Origin: Saccoglossus kowalevskii
Lineage: Eukaryota > Hemichordata > Enteropneusta > Harrimaniidae
Direction: 5' to 3'
Length of the DNA: 36,056 bases
Assembly: GCF_000003605.2 (NCBI RefSeq)
Contig: NW_003145789.1
Location: 86,802-122,857 of the forward strand
The position numbers and the translations under genes were made by a program. The notes below the pieces were generated by a model. That model saw only the letters and a program-made list of their open reading frames with translations. It had not been told where the DNA came from and searched no databases. Shown piece by piece: positions 7,109 to 23,600 of the stretch (within the stretch, counting starts at the first letter, position 1; each line of letters starts with the position of its first letter).

Positions 7109-9330
7109 ATAAATCTAAATGTTCTACACTCTGCTTCAAGAAATGGATATTAGATAATCTTCTCCTGATACTGACTTTGATTGGAGTGGTTGTCGGTTTC
7201 ATCCTTGTTCCTATACTACAGGTAAGACATTTCAGTGGAGGGCAAATTGGTTGCTATTTTGTAAGTATTTTTTTTCCATATTGAGTCAAACATTTGTTTA
7301 AGTTAACAAATAAATATGACGTCGGGATATTCTTGGTACGCATATAATCAACAGCTGTTAAATTAATTCTCTTAATGAAAATTAATATTATATTAGATAT
7401 ACGCTCACGCATTGACCCGACATTTTTTTTAATTGTATGCGAAGCCTTTGGACTTCCGTGTTCAGATAATTACAAAATATTAAAATTAGAGAAAAAAAAA
7501 AAAAAAATAACAAAATCACACACCAGCAGAATATAGATTATATTATGCATTTGTTCAGTATTACAATACATGTTCCAAGTTGATATACTCAAGAAAATAT
7601 CGGTCAATAAATATCGGAAACAAGTGGTATAGCTGCGTCACATTTTGATTAAATAACTGTACAACCTTGAGTGCGCTTTTACTTAGTGGCACGTTTCAGT
7701 ACACGTGCGGCTACGTAGAATTTTTCAGCAAACTAATACTGTTTTATATGCTATAAAAACAATTTTCAGTTCACGATAGTTCATCATCTATACTCGTCTT
7801 GCCCTCCTCATGTATATATAATGTGAACAGCCATTGTTGTGTTTATAGTATTTGCGTTCGTTGTTAAAAGCGGACCCGTATATGGGTCATGCGATTCACC
7901 TAGCCTAAAACAGATCATCAGATTCTATACTCTTTGACAACATGGTTCTATTTTATGCTGCTGTATACAATTCGGTTACGTATGTTGAAAACAAATTTCA
8001 TACGTAGTACTGCTATTCGTCAAAGTATGAATACGCGACGAGGCTAATTACAGCGCCCTCAACATGGTAAATAACGCAAGCTTGACGGGTACTCATTACA
8101 TTAATATGAGAATGGGTTGTCGAGACGGATACACGTTTTGCGTGATCTTATCAGCACACTTACGGGATATTTTATTTTTGCGGTCAAATTGACTGTTATT
8201 GAGGCATGGTTGCGTCGCCATGCTTGCTACTACTGTACGCATATGCAAATATTTAGAGAGGGTGCGTTCTACAATCCAATGAACGTCCTGAAAAAAATAT
8301 ATTTAATGCTCTACCAAAACAAACTTTCATATTTCATCTTTAAATTTAATTCACGGTGAATCGTTATAAATCATCGTTAATCTGTGCTGGTAACGTCATG
8401 GTAATTACATGTAGCAGTGATGTACGTGTAACTATTAGAATTGCTAGTTTGTCGAGCGTGTTAACAACGAAATGTTTTTATCAAGTTATAATTGTTTTGC
8501 AGCCTTTGGATCTCTCCGATAACGCCATTATGTGGATTGCACTACCAGGTGAATTGTTTATGCGGGGACTCAAGTGTATGGTTATACCGGTACTTTCAAC
8601 AAGTGTTATTACAGGTAATACGATATAACGCATTGGATATGTATACCCTGTCATAGCAACTTTCCACGGTGCCATTTTAATTATAGGATATTTACATAAA
8701 ATTGTGTATTATGTAGTTTATGTCCATTTCATTAAACCACAAGATATTGGGGTTGTGACAATGGTATTATATCGGATGGCGATAATTCGTCTGGATCCTC
8801 CCTACTTCCGAACGGAAAACCGAAACGATCGCCAATATTGAATATTCTTGATTATATCTTCTCAAAACGCAATGAAATAGATCTCAGAGTTTGAAAATTC
8901 CAGTAACCCTCATTGCAAAAAATAGCAGATTATATCAGAAAGGAATATTCAAATACATATCACTATTGCTATATTATAATCAAACATATCGACGAGGCGT
9001 CATTCTAGTATCTATATTGTCCTTCGACAGCGACAGCGTCACTGGAACCAAAGTCTAACGGTAAGATGAGCGGTGTTAGCTGTGCCTATATGGGCAGTAT
9101 GGTATTCTTTGGTGTAGTCGTGGGTATTATACTAAGTGTAACAATACAGCCCGGTAACGTCGATTCTGACATCACTAGTTTCGACTACAAACCTGCATAC
9201 TACGAAACCCAGGACGTGATTGCCGACTTGTTTAGGTTAGCCTTATTTCCATATTCGAATATTATAGCTAGAAGGTTTAGTTATGTTTCTCTGCACTCTG
9301 AAATTTGTAGATTTAAATATATTTCAGTAT

Positions 9331-9378
<48 letters not shown>

Positions 9379-12300
9379 CGAGTTATTTTTATTGTCTCGG
9401 GGGTGTATGTGATGAAAAGAATTGGGAGTGTCAATAACAATAATATATTTAAATGTTTCAGGAATATGATACCAGATAATATCATCAAAGCTTGTGTACA
9501 GTCTGTGAGTATACCTATAGAGAATGATCTAAACTATATAAAAGCTTTCAGAAAGTATATACATTCTTAGAGATAACTTGAATAACTGACCCAATATTGT
9601 ACATATATTTTCCAGATACGCACGACATATGAGTTTCAAACCACTGACAATAACGGCACTAATACAACAGAGCAAGTACTGTTGTCCAAATCGACGGACT
9701 ATGGATTTCGTTCAAACTTACTTGGTAAGAGCACTGGGAAATATTAGGTATTCAATGGTAAGATGGCGGCGTCACATAGTATAACTCTAACTGCGCATGC
9801 TTGCTTCGTATTCATACGAGCTGTTCAGCTAAATCGTGGGTACGCATCCCTGAAAAAAAATCGGGTAACTAAATACACATGTCTGTTTCACGGTTTGTCT
9901 GTGTGATAGTTAAATGTGTAATCAATGTATAATAGGGAATGAATGCCTGGACTAAATTTGTTTCTATGCGATTTGTTCACATATAAAATGGGAAAGCCTA
10001 TAGTGTTATTCTTTAAAAATCATCCCAAGAAACACATTTACCTTGTGAACATACAGTTTAAGACCCTTCAAAGAAGCGATCTGGTCCAACCCATCAAACT
10101 ATGTATCTCTTATAAACCAAATAATACATTGATGTTTCATATTATATTCATTATGTGTTATGAACACGGAATAAAAATATTTAAGTCAGTAGTTATTAAC
10201 ATTACTGGTGATTTGAATACTGTCTATTTTTGCATGATATTTATTACAGGGGTTCTTATATTCTCTGCTGTATTTGGTGCAGCCATGTGTTTCCGAAAAG
10301 AAGAAACGCGCACTATGTTTCAATTCATGTGGGAACTTCGAACGATTTCGATGGACATACTTACAGTATTCCTGTGGTATGTTGGAATCAATTACGTTTC
10401 TTCATTATATTTTGGGAATTATAGTGTCTCAGTTGACTTATGTGAAATGTGAAACAGACCGTGCAGTCTTTCTTTGAATCCATAATATTTGCTAAAATGT
10501 CACCGCAGATTATCATCCCTTTGAATATCCTCAATTGGAAACCGAGATCACGTCGAGAACGAGATAGAGACCCCCCATGACCATGGTATTTGAAACAGGG
10601 GACGCGATGGAAGAAGAGGCACTATTTGATGAGCAAAATCAAATCAATCAAATCAATCTCGCGGTTATCTCGTTCTCAACGAGATCTCAGCGTCCATTTG
10701 TGTCCAAGGTGTATTTAGAAAATGAGAAAAGCTCTAATTTGAAAAAAAAAATGACGACCAGAATTTGTCGGGGCCATATATTACTCTGGAGTGTATACAT
10801 CCATATTTAATAGCAATCTGTTAACTGATCATTTCACCTTCATGACAACATTTCACTCATCATTATTATTATTACTCACAGGGCATTACCAGTCGCTACA
10901 GCTAGTCTTATCTGCAATTCTATGATTCGAGTGGATGATATGGCAGTCGTGTGGGAAGCTTTGGGTAAATTTGCTGGCACCGTCATAGCAGGACTCGCCA
11001 TTCATATCTTCATTACCGTCTCATTGACGTTCTTCATATTGACGAGAAAGAACCCGTTTCGTTTCCAATTTCGATGTCTTAAAGCTACTATCACAGCAAT
11101 GATTACAAAAACCAAGTAAGTTTTTTTAACGATGGAATGACTGGCAATTGTCTTACAAATAGAGAGTTTTGCTCAGAGGAAGAATTCGAAACAAGTACAA
11201 GTAAATGAAATAGATGTGATGGTATACAATTCAAGATAAAATTACATGATATACATACTAAAAATAATCTAAGGAATCGTATATAACACCAACAAAAATA
11301 TAACGTTGATGTTCCTTTGTTCCCTGTTTGCTAAATTAACGTTTTATTTTTTGTTTTGCCCCAGTGCTGCCATTCTACCGCTGATATTTCGAGTCTGTGA
11401 AGTCAACAACCGAATCAACAAAACTGTCAGCAACTACGTGGTGCCGTTGAACGTGGCTTTTAAGACTGATGGTTCAGCTCTGTTCATCGTCAGCGCTGCT
11501 ATGTGGTTAGCTCAAAGTGAAGGAATGTCCTTAAACGCTGGACAAGTGGTTACCATGGGGTAGGTTGGTCAGGCTCTTTCGCGTGTTTGGGAAGTATACG
11601 ATAGACATTTAAAGATTGCTAAGACAATCAGTGATTCACAATAACTCATTCGAAAACATTCCTGAAGTTTTCGTGATTATTTTGGGATTAATTATTCAAT
11701 TTGTGTGTACTATCACCTCCATCACGTGTGTGGTTTCGCTACTAATATTCTATACCCCCAAAGTAAACTTGCATACAGCATGTTGTTTATTTGTTTTGTT
11801 CAATAAAATAGCTTTCGCTTTTCCCGCGATGTTTTTTTTTAATGGGGCTCTCGAGCAATGCTTCCATGGAAACAATGATTGTAGTTCCTATTGCCTAACG
11901 ATAACAGACCATTTTAGTCTACGTGTGTGCGAAGCATGCAAGGGAGGCAATAAGTTTGGCATGTTGGTGTGTCTGTTTAAGAAATGCGTCAAAACCTCTG
12001 AGTGGATTTTGATCAAATTTACTACGTAGGTACTTCGGGGTAATACGCAGACATAATTAGTTTTGGGGCTATATTAAATAGCTAATTTACATATGAATTA
12101 TTTCATTTCAGCCTTTGTAGGCAAAATCGCAAAAGAAAACGTCCTCGTGATTACATGCGTAGAAGTTTGGAGATATTTAAGCTGTAATTAACAAATAGTA
12201 TCCACTGTTTTTTTATATTGCATTGGATTGTTGCCGTTTAACTACATGTGCAGTTAAAGCGTGAAGGTCGTCACCTGCGCACGCGCAGGTGGCGCTCCCC

Positions 12301-12795
12301 CGATTTAACATTGCCGACAGTGGCAATATATTTACTTATATGTTTTATTTCCTCGTTTTTATTTTTTAGATCAAGTTACTATTTGTTTGTTTGTTTGTTA
12401 TATCACTTTTAGAATTGTGTCCTGGATAATGGGTTTGAGTCTCCCAGCAGTGCCAAGTGCAAGTCTTGTTGCCGTGGTTACTGTATGCAGCTCAGTTGGA
12501 ATCCCTTCGTATAATATCGGTCTGTTGATTTCCATGGAATGGCTATTGTGAGTATTATGTTTCGCATAAGTTGCATAACGTGTTATATCGATGTAACCAT
12601 TACATATGCAAATTATTGTTAATAATATATTCCTTTTTTTTCAGAGATACTCTACGAACTGGTGTTAACTGTTCCAGTCATTGTTGTTGTGCCGGCATAG
12701 TTGATAGCATAATGAAAAAAGGTGGTGTAGATAGTCGAAATATCGATGACCAGGACCGGGTTTCTAACGAAAAAGTGACAATGGATGTCATCTGA
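7109..12795 (+). CDS. SLC1A-like: Divergent SLC1 (EAAT/ASCT-type) amino acid transporter
   Basis: This is a polytopic membrane carrier of the family that moves glutamate, aspartate or neutral amino acids with sodium. Exons are 7109-7221, 8503-8614, 9031-9235, 9462-9504, 9616-9724, 10250-10376, 10882-11115, 11365-11559, 12413-12547 and 12645-12795. All junctions are GT-AG and phase-consistent. With the 2771 start the protein is 487 residues (EAATs are about 520-570). TM1 is about 30-50. The TM2 block has ALPGELFMRGLKCMVIP, then SLEPKSNGKM, RNMIPDNIIKAC, an extracellular loop with sequons N184 and N187, LTRKNP and VCEVNN. Key sites depart from the family. HP1 GTSSSSATLP is ITKTNAAILP (324-333). 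NMDGTAL is KTDGSAL (361-367, nucleotides from 11462). HP2 GAAGIP is SLPAVP. The TM8 aspartate corresponding to GltPh D405 is H450. D439, R442 and N446 are kept. The frame is intact, so the gene looks functional. Substrate is unknown. Confidence 0.9.
9335..9377 (+). repeat. (GAT)n microsatellite
   Basis: About 14 GAT units lie in the SLC1 intron that follows the exon ending at 9235. The run happens to stay open in one frame and reads as a methionine string, but it lies outside every inferred exon. Confidence 0.9.
10532..10700. mobile_element. Hairpin MITE-like element with 34-bp inverted ends
   Basis: The left arm (10532-10565) and the right arm (10667-10700) are imperfect reverse complements. 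The inner part (GTCGAGAACGAGAT against GTTGAGAACGAGAT) is nearly perfect, and outer matches extend to CAAxTGGA. The spacer has no coding capacity beyond chance. The whole lies in the SLC1 intron 10377-10881. No clear target-site duplication was seen, so the class is undetermined. Confidence 0.6.
12253..12291 (+). repeat. Short dispersed repeat with NRF1-like palindrome
   Basis: The segment starts GTTAAAGC and contains the near-perfect palindrome CACCTGCGC-AC-GCGCAGGTG (12272-12291). The centre fits the NRF1 consensus (YGCGCAYGCGCR), and the flanks are CACCTG E-boxes. A 36-bp relative in reverse orientation lies at 15711-15746. It sits in the SLC1 intron before the exon at 12413. Regulatory function is unproven. 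Confidence 0.5.
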
Positions 12796-12915: not shown

Positions 12916-13043
12916 GATTTAAAGCGCGGTGGTCGTCACGCAGCGCGTGTTCGAATTTCATGTAAATAAACAATGTATTTTACAGCGTTGTATACGTCAA
13001 TATGGACCCCATATCGAACAGGACACGGCGCGACTACCTTTAG
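12916..13043 (+). mobile_element. GATTTAAAG-ended MITE, copy 1
   Basis: About 128 bp beginning GATTTAAAGC and ending near CTACCTTTAG. It is clearly related, in opposite orientation, to 33970-34110. Shared blocks include GCGTGTTCGAATTTC, GTAAATAAACAATG and CCCATATCGAACAGGAC. Its ends are imperfect inverted repeats, most visible in copy 2. It lies 120 bp after the SLC1 stop codon and encodes nothing. Confidence 0.75.
12965..12970 (+). terminator. AATAAA polyadenylation signal, likely for SLC1
   Basis: This is the first canonical AATAAA after the SLC1 stop at 12795, 170 bp downstream, followed by a GT-containing stretch. It lies inside the MITE copy at 12916-13043. A weaker ATTAAA overlaps the stop codon at 12795-12800 and could serve instead. 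Confidence 0.4.
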
Positions 13044-17656: not shown

Positions 17657-20600
17657 TTAAACTTTAGCTGATCTCTGTGTACGAATATATTCACCAAAAG
17701 TTGGACGGCTATGGTAGCAAACAGGCAGAGATCGAGATGTATCTCCATAGGTGTTTCCAAATCTGTATCGCATTTCTGTAAAAAAAAAAAACATAATAAC
17801 TATTGAAGTTTGTGAAGTTATTTATGTAAGTAATTCACTCTTTTTCATTTAGCTTTGGTCGGTCCATGTTTTAAAAGTTCAATGTTGAGATAAAAATGAT
17901 CTGTTAAGATTGCCATGTGCAGCTTAATCTTAAATCTACCGTACATGCCAATCCACAACATTTCATTGACAGTTTATTCACAAAAAATCTACAAATTTCT
18001 AAGACATTGATAAAACCGTAATTGTTCATACAAATATTAGAAATGTTGATACTTACGGGGTAAATATCCTGTATATTTTGGAACCATTCCATTTTGTTTG
18101 TAAAGTCTACGGCTATTGGCGTCAGGATGCTGACGTGGGAGTTCTACACCCGTCACACCCACTGCCTCGGCTTCATTCCTGTATGAAGTAGAATTGTTTT
18201 GACGTTTTAGTATTGAAGTATTTACTTTGCTCAATCACTGCGACAATATTATGAATACAACTTTATGATTCTAGACATCAAATTAGTTTGAAAGAATGAA
18301 TGAATAAAAGGAAGTGGTACAATGCAATACTACTAAATAGACATAATAAATTCTGATGGCAAAATGATTTAATAACTGATAACACAATATATAGAGGATA
18401 TCAAATGAGTAATATTTAATTAGAGTATTTATTAAACCCATGTGGTAATTTTCATATTTTTAAGCTTTTGATAATTAGTACATATGAATTAAATATAATA
18501 TTACACACATATAAGCAACTCTCTGCTGTTTCACTTGGGTTTTAAACACAAAAACTGACAATAAAACTGAGTGTGAACATCATAAGCATCTAATAACATT
18601 CTATTCATTTGCATCCAGCAATGCCAATCTATAAATAAGCATTGCAGCCATTTTATCGGCTGCGATTAAACAAATAATTATTTCTTGGAACCATCAATGT
18701 ATTTACTGTTATAGAGCCACAGTGACAACAATTTAACTATTGGCTAGTTTTATTAGCATCCTTCATTTTGTCTTAGCAGTAGTGGCGGTTCAGTACAGAA
18801 AATGAATTCCAAGGCGAAATTCATAAATTCGATTCAAAATTCTAATATGGAAAAATATTATATGGTTTTATGTTATGCCACTGCCATAATTATTTAAGTT
18901 TGCACTCTGCGATCACTCATTAGGCTTCATTTGGATCTTTCTTCTTTTTTTTATTTAAAGATATTTTTTATTGAGTCAAGTCTCTTAAAACTACATTTCG
19001 GTTTTACTTAAGAATCGCATGAAATACTTTTACATAGTCACAAATTGATCCCATTTAAGCATTAATGGCTTATGTGGATCTCCCAACAGAATTGTTTCAT
19101 CAAATATTTCTAAACCCTGTTTGTTTTCCTCATCGCTCAACAAATTTCTCACAATACAAATGAACAAAAGAACAGCATATCATCAGGTGCATAATAGTTT
19201 CTGCTTCCCCTTTAAAGAATGTACACATTTTAGATGAGCAAATCGAGGGAAAATTTTATTTAGTTTTACTTCATTTGGATCATAGGAATATTATGTGACA
19301 TATTTCATGGTATGATAGTAACAAATATTTCACTTCTTCTTTGTTCTGATTTACAATGGCTCACAGGAATTCAAAACAGAGTTGAATCTTTGTGAATATA
19401 TGCATATCAGAACGATAATCAAAATTCTTGACAAATGTTTATTTTTCATTTTCCACAAATATAGAATATTAAATATTTCACATGAAAGTCTCAAGAATCC
19501 AATAAATTCACAGGAATGACCTTAGAGTGCAACTTTCATACTGTGTTTTAACTTTCTGATGATAACATACCTTGGGGGTATCACTGGTTTTCCAATCTTT
19601 GCCATGTGTCTTTGTGTTTCATGGTCAAACACTTCTAATGAGTCTTTGCATACAGTGTGGTAGCGCCCTCCCAGTCCTAACTCTGTCACTCCTTTCCTTG
19701 GTATGAACCCACGATAACCAGGCATTGGTGCTTCTGTTGGTGTTTTTCTACTTTCTGAAAACACAAAATAAAAGTGAAATGTTTCTCCTTCGGACTGAGA
19801 GAATACTATAAATATATTTGCAATAATAATAATAGTGATCAAGACACCTAATGTATCATTTAACATTGAGCCAACACTAAAAAAAATTGGCCAAATTCAT
19901 CGTTTTTGTGTGGAAAAATCCCTTGCGAAACGAATACCTAATTACACAAGTTCACATTCCCGGGGTACAAGTATTTGAAACCGAAATCCTCATCTAACTG
20001 TAAGGTCATCACTGATTGGCTCCTGAGTTGGATAAGAAGTTTAGTTTCAAATACCGTTTGTATTGGTAAATTGATCACATTTATTTTATTATCATGTGTA
20101 CGCCAGCTGTCTGTGTGTTCTAAATAACAAAATGCTACAACGAGTAAACTTAGTTGACTCTGAACAACACTGCTACAACACTCCACCCATCTACATTAAT
20201 TTTATAGCATTAAAATATCTTTTTTTCTGATGCATTTACAATTTACTTTAATAATATTTTTTCTAAAACAAATATTAATGTATTTAAAAATGATTATTAA
20301 TGATTTCTATAACAGACTTTCAATATTTTGTATATATTTATTCTAAACATTTATGAATATCTTGAACTAAATTTATACAAATACCCAGTATATTCCCACT
20401 TTACCAGTGTTACATGTAAACACTCGCCTAGAAAAATGTAAAATACTGTGTGTAAAATTGCTACCAAACACTACATACCTAGTAAAATTGGTGCTGTAGG
20501 ATTCCTATCTCTGAAGTCATTCAGTCGTTTGATCACTCTATCATCATCTTTCGTGACAGCGTTCAGATTGGGATAGCCATTAACAGTTTGTTTAAGTTCA

Positions 20601-23600
20601 TGAACGTTTGTTCCATGTTTTTTAGTATTTGTGAGGAAGTCGTCAATGCAGACATCACAATCTTCTTTGTATGTGCCACCAAACTTGAAAGGCATTCTGG
20701 GAATATAACCTGCGAATATAAAAATTACATAAAAATAAATTTGATTTCAAACTTTAATACAGACTTAGTTTATATGATTCCCAGAATATATAAGTGCCCA
20801 CATCCTCAGGATGAGCTTTCAATTCAATGCAGTTACTTCTTCTATAGGAATTTATGAAAACAAAGTTTCAGTTTAAACTAATAATCATACAGTAAATGCA
20901 TATACCAGGTATATACATGTATCTAGTACATTTGATTTGCAATAATTTGAAATAGCTTTCAACATATCATGATGTGTATTTCATATAAAAAATGACAACA
21001 TACTGTAGAACCTAAAACTCAACTACATGGCTTAAATTTTAGCTGGTTTTTATTTTCAAATAAAAACTGACAAAACACTGTACAATTATCTACAGCACAA
21101 CTACTGTACATGGCTTAAATTTTAGCTGTTTTTTATTTTCAAATAAAAACTGACAAAACACTGTACAATTATCTACAGCACAACTACTGTACATGGCTTA
21201 AATTTTAGCTGTTTTTTATTTTCAAATAAAAACTGACAAAACACTGTACAATTATCTACAGCACAACTACTGTACATGGCTTAAATTTTAGCTGGTTTTT
21301 ATTTTCAAATAAAAACTGACAAAACACTGTACAATTATCTACAGCACAACTACTGTACATGGCTTAACATTTAGCTAGATTTTATTATCACTTAAGGTTA
21401 AGTGTGTCTGATTAACTTAGTGAATATTTAACAAATTTAACAACAGAGTATATTGTTTTTTCTCAAACCAGTGAATTTGAAACCTAGAGAATAACCAAGT
21501 AATCCACTATATTAATGCTATGAATTGTATTTATCTTTCTACATTACTATATACAGATAAATATCTTGTAGTGGTAATTACCCAATTTGTAGTGGGTTAC
21601 ATAGTAGTAAAATTACATGTATGAAAAGAGTGGTCAAACAGTTTTGTTCTATAGTATATGCTAATTTATGCTAATTAGACATAAAACCTAACCATGAGAG
21701 TTTTGTCTGCATGCTAACAGTGTTTGATGATCAGTAGAATTCCTTTCCTTAGTAATATCTTTTTAAATCAATATTTCTTTCACTGTTAAGATTTGGTGTT
21801 GTCTTGGTCCGAATTCATCATATTATATCACTGTGATCGAACAGGAACCGTTACTTTTCAAACACAATGATAAACAAAATATTGGTGGAAACAGTTGCCC
21901 ACAAAGTGGGTGCAACATATATTAACATGTAACTTGTCTAGTCAATGCCTTGTAGTTTTGTTGATTACAAATAAATCAATTTGTGGTATGATCAAAAGAA
22001 ACTAGAAGCATAAATGACATGTTTATTTGGACTGCTCATCCAACTCACTGCACAGTACTGAGGATTATAGCCAGAACTTTTGACATTCAGTGCAGGTCCG
22101 AACCCAGTTAACTTCTTCAATGAATTCTAATCCCTTAATCTCAAAAAAACAGAACCTACTGGGGTTAATAAAAACTATGTAAATCTCCATATAACTGTTG
22201 CTATTTACAACCATAAACAAAGAAAGTGTGGAATTCACAAGAATGAATGCAGATATTAACTTAAACAATACCTAAACTATCATTCCCTTGGCAAAAAAAA
22301 GACATTGGTATTGACTTGTTATTGCCAGTGAAATGAAATAAACTGTTAAAGAGAATGGACATTGAGAGAGTTGGGGTTTGAAAGTATTTTCAATAGACTT
22401 GGTTCACAATAATGCAATACTGTAAAATACTTTATTTTCGCTAGAATTAATTTTCGCTTTAAAGTGTTTTTGGGTGTTTTGTATGGAATTTATTTTCACT
22501 GGATTTCTGACGAGTTGAATGTGAAAAACAGGAAAAAAGGTATATTCGCTGGATTTTATTTACACTGAATCATTCCTGCAGCGAAAATAGCGGAAATTAA
22601 TTCCAAGCTAAAATAAAGTATTTCACAGTACATCAACAACTGATATAGAAATTAGTGCATGATTTAACGAGGTATGAGTGTACGATTCTCGAACAATTTC
22701 CCATGTACAAAAACTTAATGGCCAATTAATGGACTGAACTAATGCTAAATAAACACAAGACTAATGTGATACCAAGTATAACTTTAATGACAAGAATAGG
22801 GTGCCTGTCTGTACTCAAGTATTCTTATTAATTTCTCAAGTGATATGAGCGAAGACAATTAACTGAATACCTATAAGTTGCAATTGACAGTTATAGAAAT
22901 AGCACTATATAAGTGGTGTCAACAGACACAGTAGTTTGAAGTCACCACTCTCAAGGTCTTCTTGTGCCATACTTACTGAATACATTGATGCTATTGAATT
23001 AACAGTTGCTAGGGCAGGCTACTACAAAACATTAGCTTTGTTCTCCTGGGACATTAGTTATACACTGGTCAGTTAACAGCCCTCTAATGGATTAATGGTT
23101 TCTCAAAGACATCAGTTTACACTGTAATTGAATGTGGAGTGCCAGAAATTGGAAATTGTTGTTGCATTCTAGTTGTTGCAAAATTGTGGGTTTATAAGAA
23201 GGATTAGGATCAGAAAAACAAAAGAAGTTGTCAAAAATCAGTGTGAAACAATTTTTAAATATTCATTTTATTTTAAAATTGTCATTAAAATTTATTTTTG
23301 ATTTTGATTTTTTAACAAACCTGTGATGCATATTCAGGGTTTTATATATTTATATATACTCAGAAAAGCAAGCTTAATAAATCTGATATCATGGGTTATG
23401 ATATTCTATTTATCACATGTATGTATTACTAGCTGTCCTGCCAGAAGAAACTAACATCAGAATCATGTGTGTGTGTGCATTTTAAACTTCTCAATGTGTT
23501 CTATTCATTTGCATATGGGAATGCCGTTCTTCGAACTTAAGTGCTTCCAGTTTATTGGCTGTGATTAACACATCCACGGATAGCCTAAATAAATAGGGGA

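Follow-up and report, generated by a model that had tools for sequence, protein, structure and literature searches.

Replaced ion-coupling residues and retained substrate residues in five hemichordate SLC1 paralogues: a candidate route to cation-independent transport

Introduction

A central problem in the study of SLC1 carriers is how the movement of substrate is tied to that of three Na+, one H+ and one K+. In GltPh, the NMD loop is reported to flip in for high affinity upon Na+ binding at Na1 and Na3, and a reconstructed sodium-uncoupled bacterial ancestor, a cation-independent exchanger, reaches the flipped-in state without Na+; in prokaryotes, sodium coupling is described as having disappeared by way of allosteric changes that left the binding sites intact (PMC12668577). 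Among the animal carriers, E406 of EAAT1 is described as the established proton acceptor, and E406 and R479 are reported as conserved across the K+-coupled members (PMC6769379). Here, we analyzed a 36,056-nucleotide stretch of the genome of the hemichordate Saccoglossus kowalevskii (bases 86802-122857 of contig C3653, NW_003145789.1; hereafter, the window), which carries an SLC1-like gene on its + strand. This gene and four paralogues, related by common descent and evolving under purifying selection, have replaced their ion-coupling residues and retained their substrate residues. We suggest, with a confidence slightly short of even, that this animal subfamily swapped sodium for a protein-borne lysine or arginine and thereby became a cation-independent glutamate/aspartate exchanger.

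Results

The window gene and its paralogues

The SLC1-like gene occupies positions 7109-12795, where we located ten exons that together read as 473 residues from 7111 to the stop codon:

7109-7221, 8503-8614, 9031-9235, 9462-9504 and 9616-9724, + strand: exons 1-5, from the spliced reading
10250-10376, 10882-11115, 11365-11559, 12413-12547 and 12645-12795, + strand: exons 6-10, from the spliced reading

All nine introns between these exons are GT-AG and phase-compatible, and no internal stop interrupts the 473 residues, in line with the earlier note on this DNA, which had called the splice sites and phases sound. That note had placed the gene at 11100..12795, an interval that covers its 3' part but not its beginning, which lies at or before 7109. 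Of the 487-residue product it had proposed, we recovered the 473 residues from 7111, while 14 N-terminal residues could not be placed; its residue numbers are those of the present reading plus 14. For the window gene, no exon bearing the start codon was located. Its protein is likely to have a short N-terminus, because two paralogues, C4449 and C1739, have a methionine 13-14 residues ahead of transmembrane helix 1 (TM1). The window protein scores 257.2 bits against PF00375 (SLC1/SDF; family cut-off 27.9), aligns with human EAAT1 over its residues 10 to 449, and is 31-35% identical to EAAT1 and EAAT2.

A PF00375 profile search covering the 572-Mb genome returned at least 17 matches, and a protein search using the last 213 residues returned at least 21; both hit the same seven genes. 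Five of these carry altered motifs (the window gene, C3653a, C2796, C1739 and C4449), C3653a being a tandem copy of the window gene about 30 kb upstream. The other two, C1299 and the partly read C1748, have the canonical NMDGT motif; the C1748 fragment begins after TM3, so its letters at T92/S93 carry no meaning. In all gene models used, the introns are GT-AG and internal stops are absent, and PF00375, whose cut-off all five altered genes exceed, is the sole Pfam domain in their found exons. The TM1-TM2 exons of C3653a were not found in the stretch read; they may lie hidden in a 5.8-kb run of N, which stops some 1.4 kb upstream of the first exon located. The first exon of C1739 is frameshifted and was omitted from its model. 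A search with one exon found no second haplotype.

Several sequence features accompany these genes. Fifteen perfect TGA/GAT repeats (9334-9378) lie within the intron 9235-9462 of the window gene. The motif TTAAAG-NNN-GGTGGTCGTC occurs at 12254-12272 and at 12919-12937, just past the window-gene stop, and also about 20 bases past the C4449 stop (L025 868-886); with up to 3 mismatches allowed, it has 3 matches in the window against 0.13 expected, and is perhaps a dispersed repeat. The C-terminal tail of C2796 (L014) contains a run of about 17 aspartates. C4449 (L015, L025) has the most divergent sites: N310/M311 are Lys-Lys, D405 is Tyr, and T398, which is described as strictly conserved across eukaryotic SLC1 except in two mosquito genes (PMC3737229), is Gly.

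Ion-site and substrate-site residues

We compared the functional sites in an ungapped alignment, using GltPh numbers and listing the genes in the order window gene, C3653a, C2796, C1739, C4449. The corresponding positions in the window gene, which include those of hairpins 1 and 2 (HP1, HP2), are:

9099..9104, + strand: TM3 codons for Met and Val at T92/S93 (Na3 hydroxyls), from the ungapped alignment
11108..11110, + strand: HP1-tip Lys codon (GltPh R276, EAAT1 S363), from the alignment
11462-11476, + strand: TM7 KTDGS in place of NMDGT (GltPh 310-314), from the alignment
11486..11488, + strand: Ile codon at the EAAT proton acceptor (EAAT1 E406, GltPh Q318), Ile in all five genes
12432..12464, + strand: HP2 tip GLSLPAVPSAS in place of SIGAAGIPQAG, from the alignment
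12537..12539, + strand: Glu codon at D390, Glu in all five genes
12646..12669, + strand: TM8 DTLRTGVN, with D394, R397, T398 and N401 kept and Thr at M395, from the alignment
12679..12681, + strand: His codon at the Na1 aspartate D405, His in four of the five genes and Tyr in C4449

The residues that hold ions in the canonical carriers are replaced throughout the subfamily. T92 reads M, M, V, M and I across the five genes and S93 reads V, V, L, V and I; neither the Na3 hydroxyls of EAAT1 (T130/T131) nor its Na1 aspartate (D487) is kept in any of them. The equivalent of NMDGT reads KTDGS, KSDGS, NRDGS, KSDGS and KKDGS. Thus, position 310 is K, K, N, K and K and position 311 is T, S, R, S and K, with a lysine or arginine at one or the other in every gene, while D312 is unchanged and T314 has become Ser in all five. 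The TM7 lysine singled out by the earlier note is therefore recurrent, standing at N310 in four of the paralogues and represented by an adjacent Arg in the fifth. EAAT1 R479 is retained in all five genes, although its partner E406 is Ile. At the HP2 tip, A353 has become Pro and G359 Ser in every gene, and G351 reads S, S, S, C and C. The Arg that EAATs carry at the M395 position (EAAT1 Arg477) is lost in all five, which read T, S, A, A and A, and the R276 position reads K, K, K, K and R, where C1299, EAAT1 and EAAT2 have Ala or Ser.

All five genes retain the substrate residues D394, R397 and N401, and T398 is kept in four, with Gly in C4449. The changes that mark the SLC1 dicarboxylate carriers DctA and CuqDCT (D394 to Ser or Asn, T398 to Ala) are found in none. 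Of the signatures of H+-coupled members, M311L, D405N and S279E are each absent from all five genes, and a hydrophobic residue at position 92 is present in all.

As a reference, we used the best 80 of 587 prokaryotic matches, those nearest the query, from a scan built on HP2-TM8, which avoids selecting on TM7. After five open reading frames (ORFs) below 250 residues were dropped, 75 of the 80 remained; this sample represents GltPh-like homologues, not SLC1 at large. N310, M311, D312, A353, G359, D394, R397 and N401 are each present in 75/75 of these ORFs, D405 is present in 74/75, and position 276 is Arg in 22/75. From this comparison with the five genes, we conclude that the substrate-reading residues are spared while the ion-holding residues change.

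The letters that the earlier note had read at these sites agree with ours. HP1 contains ITKTNAAILP, interrupted by a GT-AG intron with phase-compatible ends (11115|11365); KTDGS replaces NMDGT; HP2 contains LSLPAVPSAS; and TM8 reads EWLLDTLRTGVNCSSH, with Glu at D390, His at D405, and D394, R397 and N401 unchanged. Its central observation, that ion-coupling residues are replaced and substrate residues retained, holds across the five paralogues, and the substitutions beyond its list (T92/S93, EAAT1 E406, the TM8 Arg477 and the HP1 Lys) strengthen the case. Exons that would restore the canonical motifs, which it had named as a possible refutation, were not found in the window: a six-frame pattern search gave zero matches to NMDG or N.DG[TS], to SS-x-T[LM]P-type HP1 and to G[AT]A[GS][IV]P HP2, a search that intra-motif splices would escape.

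Selection on the five genes

The five genes evolve under strong purifying selection. Between the window gene and C3653a, there are 86, 56 and 215 differences at codon positions 1, 2 and 3, respectively. The maximum-likelihood (ML) omega for this pair is 0.051 and ranges over 0.025-0.115 among the ten pairs of the five genes, with dS saturated (3.5-20, not reliable); the saturation left NG86 without dS and YN00 without a value for any pair. When the window gene is paired with each of the other four, amino-acid identity is 0.73, 0.58, 0.48 and 0.46 and no stops occur; a neutral simulation matched to the four-fold divergence gave mean identities of 0.06-0.11, with no run having fewer than 9 stops. 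The matched four-fold divergence (0.63-0.76) is near or at saturation, so this nearly equals a comparison with random sequence. The suggestion that the protein is under selection was thus borne out among the paralogues. The dN/dS that the note had proposed to measure on orthologues was computed here between paralogues, whose dS is saturated, and is low.

Descent from an animal SLC1 gene

Exon lengths of 205, 43, 127, 234, 195 and 135 bases are common to the window gene and C1299, and the window gene therefore descends from an ordinary animal SLC1 gene. The same matching lengths rule out a retrocopy and a transfer from bacteria. An intron between TM1 and TM2 (window 7221|8503) is present in the window gene, C2796, C1739 and C4449 and absent in C1299; C3653a is unreadable there. 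We built the tree that the earlier note had proposed, by ML and with 28 rows: 19 of the 75 usable prokaryotic rows and, for the animals, two human proteins and the seven genes found here. The five altered genes group as a single clade (100/100) whose stem is 1.63 changes per column long. This clade falls within the animal rows, where EAAT2 and C1299 are its neighbours (92/84; a placement that is not firm). When the alignment of the five genes was used to scan bacterial and archaeal genomes, it yielded 36 pattern matches and 0 confirmed relatives.

Other features of the window and genome

Elsewhere in the window, we observed the following:

618-1367, + strand: endonuclease domain of a non-LTR (long terminal repeat) retrotransposon, PF14529, 41.4 bits
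13706-14029, minus strand: match to DUF1759 (74.7 bits), some 0.9 kb past the end of the SLC1 gene
19522-19896, minus strand: exon match to SPMIP5 (sperm microtubule inner protein), 41.4 bits against a cut-off of 21
20471-20746, minus strand: ORF with no Pfam match, perhaps the next SPMIP5 exon by its look

DUF1759 occurs in the gag region of BEL/Pao-type elements. In the mitochondrial contig C4830 (L112, L113; 17,037 bases), COX1 lies opposite in strand to most other protein genes, which may be a derived order or may stem from the assembly. ATA occurs at 9 positions of this COX1, where the aligned mammalian residue is Ile in 5, Val in 2, Leu in 1 and Met in 1; its single AAA falls at a conserved Lys, and TGA reads as Trp. 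AUA is stated to encode Ile in echinoderms and hemichordates, and AAA to encode Lys in Saccoglossus kowalevskii, which is described with a derived gene order, and in the pterobranch Rhabdopleura (PMC3121625). The mitochondrial code thus points to this acorn worm as the probable source of the genome.

Discussion

Proposed mechanism

Judging from the residues, Na+ coupling has very probably been lost in this subfamily. We rate as evenly poised the broader proposal that its main function is uncoupled carriage, that is, transport of acidic amino acids without coupling to Na+, H+ or K+. In the mechanism we propose, the lysine or arginine in the unwound TM7 loop (N310/M311) would form a salt bridge with the retained D312 and fill the Na3/Na1 space. 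This cation would hold the NMD loop in the flipped-in, substrate-ready shape, for which sodium-coupled members need Na+ binding. With D405 gone, the site would be charge-balanced without Na+: the canonical Na1 and Na3 sites would offer two negative side chains (D312 and D405) to two Na+, whereas four of the five genes would set one positive side chain against one negative, giving a neutral site in the absence of ions provided that the His is uncharged, and the C4449 site would have one positive charge in excess. Such a protein would work as an elevator carrier free of ion coupling and independent of Na+, a glutamate/aspartate exchanger or facilitator for which substrate gradients supply the driving force, and it might also conduct anions. 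In sodium-independent LAT carriers, a Lys is reported to substitute for Na2 (PMC8399266), and the loop lysine or arginine may, by analogy, do sodium's job here.

Several observations weigh against this proposal. The gate may be stiffened by the changes in HP2, where a Pro has appeared and glycines are missing. In C2796, N310 is intact and the cation is instead Arg at 311, and C4449 has two lysines together with Gly at T398; the five genes therefore need not share one mechanism. Across the clade, the transport domain is 52.1% identical and the scaffold 55.6%, compared with 67.0% and 52.7% in the canonical rows, so the extra constraint on the carrier core has been lost over the depth of the clade, as would also fit a loss of carriage. 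Finally, the well-studied loss of coupling in bacteria is described as having left the sites intact (PMC12668577).

Alternative explanations

Were coupled carriage lost, the protein might be chiefly an anion channel, its scaffold/transport-domain interface conducting Cl-, perhaps gated by glutamate, an alternative we consider unlikely. The pore-linked residues P290 and L296 of EAAT1 are kept in all five genes, S103 is Ser in three of the four that reach it, and the L88 position is Phe in all four, matching GltPh F50 (pore list from PMC5472439). Moreover, the positive charge of the anion pore, reported to be supplied by TM8 in EAATs and by HP1 in GltPh (PMC8763778), returns to the HP1 tip as in GltPh, where R276 is described as bonding D394 part-time (PMC6175574). 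Because this charge is back at the HP1 tip, an anion conductance in the window protein is plausible; zebrafish EAAT2b is reported to act mainly as a chloride leak (PMC12648573). However, ordinary carriers keep the same pore residues, which hence do not point to a channel, and a leak channel would not need the D394, R397 and N401 that all five genes retain. The same residues would suit a non-transporting glutamate sensor or regulatory subunit, which would bind substrate, or join canonical subunits in a complex, but move no substrate. The altered HP2 gate (Pro at A353 and Ser at G359 in all five) and a transport-domain constraint below that of the canonical rows agree with such a role, but no signalling domain has been added in the found exons of any of the five, and conservation within the tandem pair is highest in TM7, HP2 and TM8 (86-87%); we regard this role as distinctly unlikely.

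The remaining explanations keep an ion or dispense with a working gene. Coupling to H+ as in the bacterial GltP group, through titration of His405 or the loop Lys, seems improbable: the titratable His occurs in four genes, and Met, Val or Ile at T92 in all five is one of three reported H+-coupled signatures (PMC12668577), but M311 is not Leu, D405 not Asn and S279 not Glu in any gene, the EAAT proton acceptor is Ile in all, and C4449 has Tyr at 405. Residual coupling to Na+ through a rearranged or reduced site could draw on D312, kept in all five, and on Na2, which is built mostly from backbone carbonyls. Yet the Na1/Na3 ligands are replaced in every gene and a cation sits in the loop; furthermore, the GltPh variants N310A and D312A are reported to show no uptake (PMC3302783), and an ordinary Na+ carrier is therefore unlikely for the window protein. 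Overall, we find continued Na+ coupling highly improbable. A decaying pseudogene, or an artefact of assembly or prediction, would account for the missing start-codon exon, for the absence of TM1-TM2 exons from the stretch of C3653a read and for the frameshift in the first exon of C1739. Against it, the ten exons join soundly and are free of internal stops, the same replacements recur in five genes, and purifying selection is strong; the N run may conceal the missing C3653a exons; this explanation is scarcely credible.

Significance and comparison with known systems

If the uncoupled-carrier proposal is true, replacement of a site by a fixed charge would represent a second, independent route to uncoupling, and in these genes ion coupling would have been deleted naturally, with charge kept in balance, in a family whose coupling is very well studied. 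They would also allow a direct test of whether an NMD-loop lysine and the loss of D405 free a canonical carrier of sodium. As hemichordate paralogues, they would bear on the diversification of glutamate handling in deuterostomes. In the open-licence literature on SLC1 families in animals and their evolution, we found no paper describing an animal SLC1 clade of this kind; automatic annotations of the five genes under EAAT-like names may well exist.

The closest relatives are the animal EAATs (SLC1A1-3, A6 and A7), with EAAT2 and C1299 nearest in the tree. The five genes share with them the PF00375 fold family and D394/R397/N401, and six exon lengths are as in C1299, but the five replace NMDGT, the Na3 hydroxyls, D405, E406 and Arg477, and add Lys or Arg in TM7 and at the HP1 tip. 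The prokaryotic AncInt/ExtInt exchangers are alike in binding substrate without Na+ or H+ coupling, a property proposed here from sequence; in them, however, allosteric changes are described as coming first, with the sites intact (PMC12668577), whereas the five genes have replaced T92, S93 and D405 throughout and would use a cation of the protein. With the H+-coupled prokaryotic members (GltP/GltT type, ExtH) they have in common the hydrophobic residue at T92, but M311L, D405N and S279E appear in none of the five. The mosquito dicarboxylate carrier CuqDCT is likewise an animal SLC1 paralogue with core residues replaced and its function changed; it is reported to have altered substrate residues (D to N, T to A) (PMC3737229), while the five genes keep D394 and alter ion residues. 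Zebrafish EAAT2b, reported as a chloride leak, is an earlier case of an EAAT duplicate that serves mainly for something other than uptake (PMC12648573). Finally, carriers of the LAT/ApcT type, in which a Lys takes the role of sodium, have an unrelated fold, and the likeness to them would be mechanistic only (PMC8399266).

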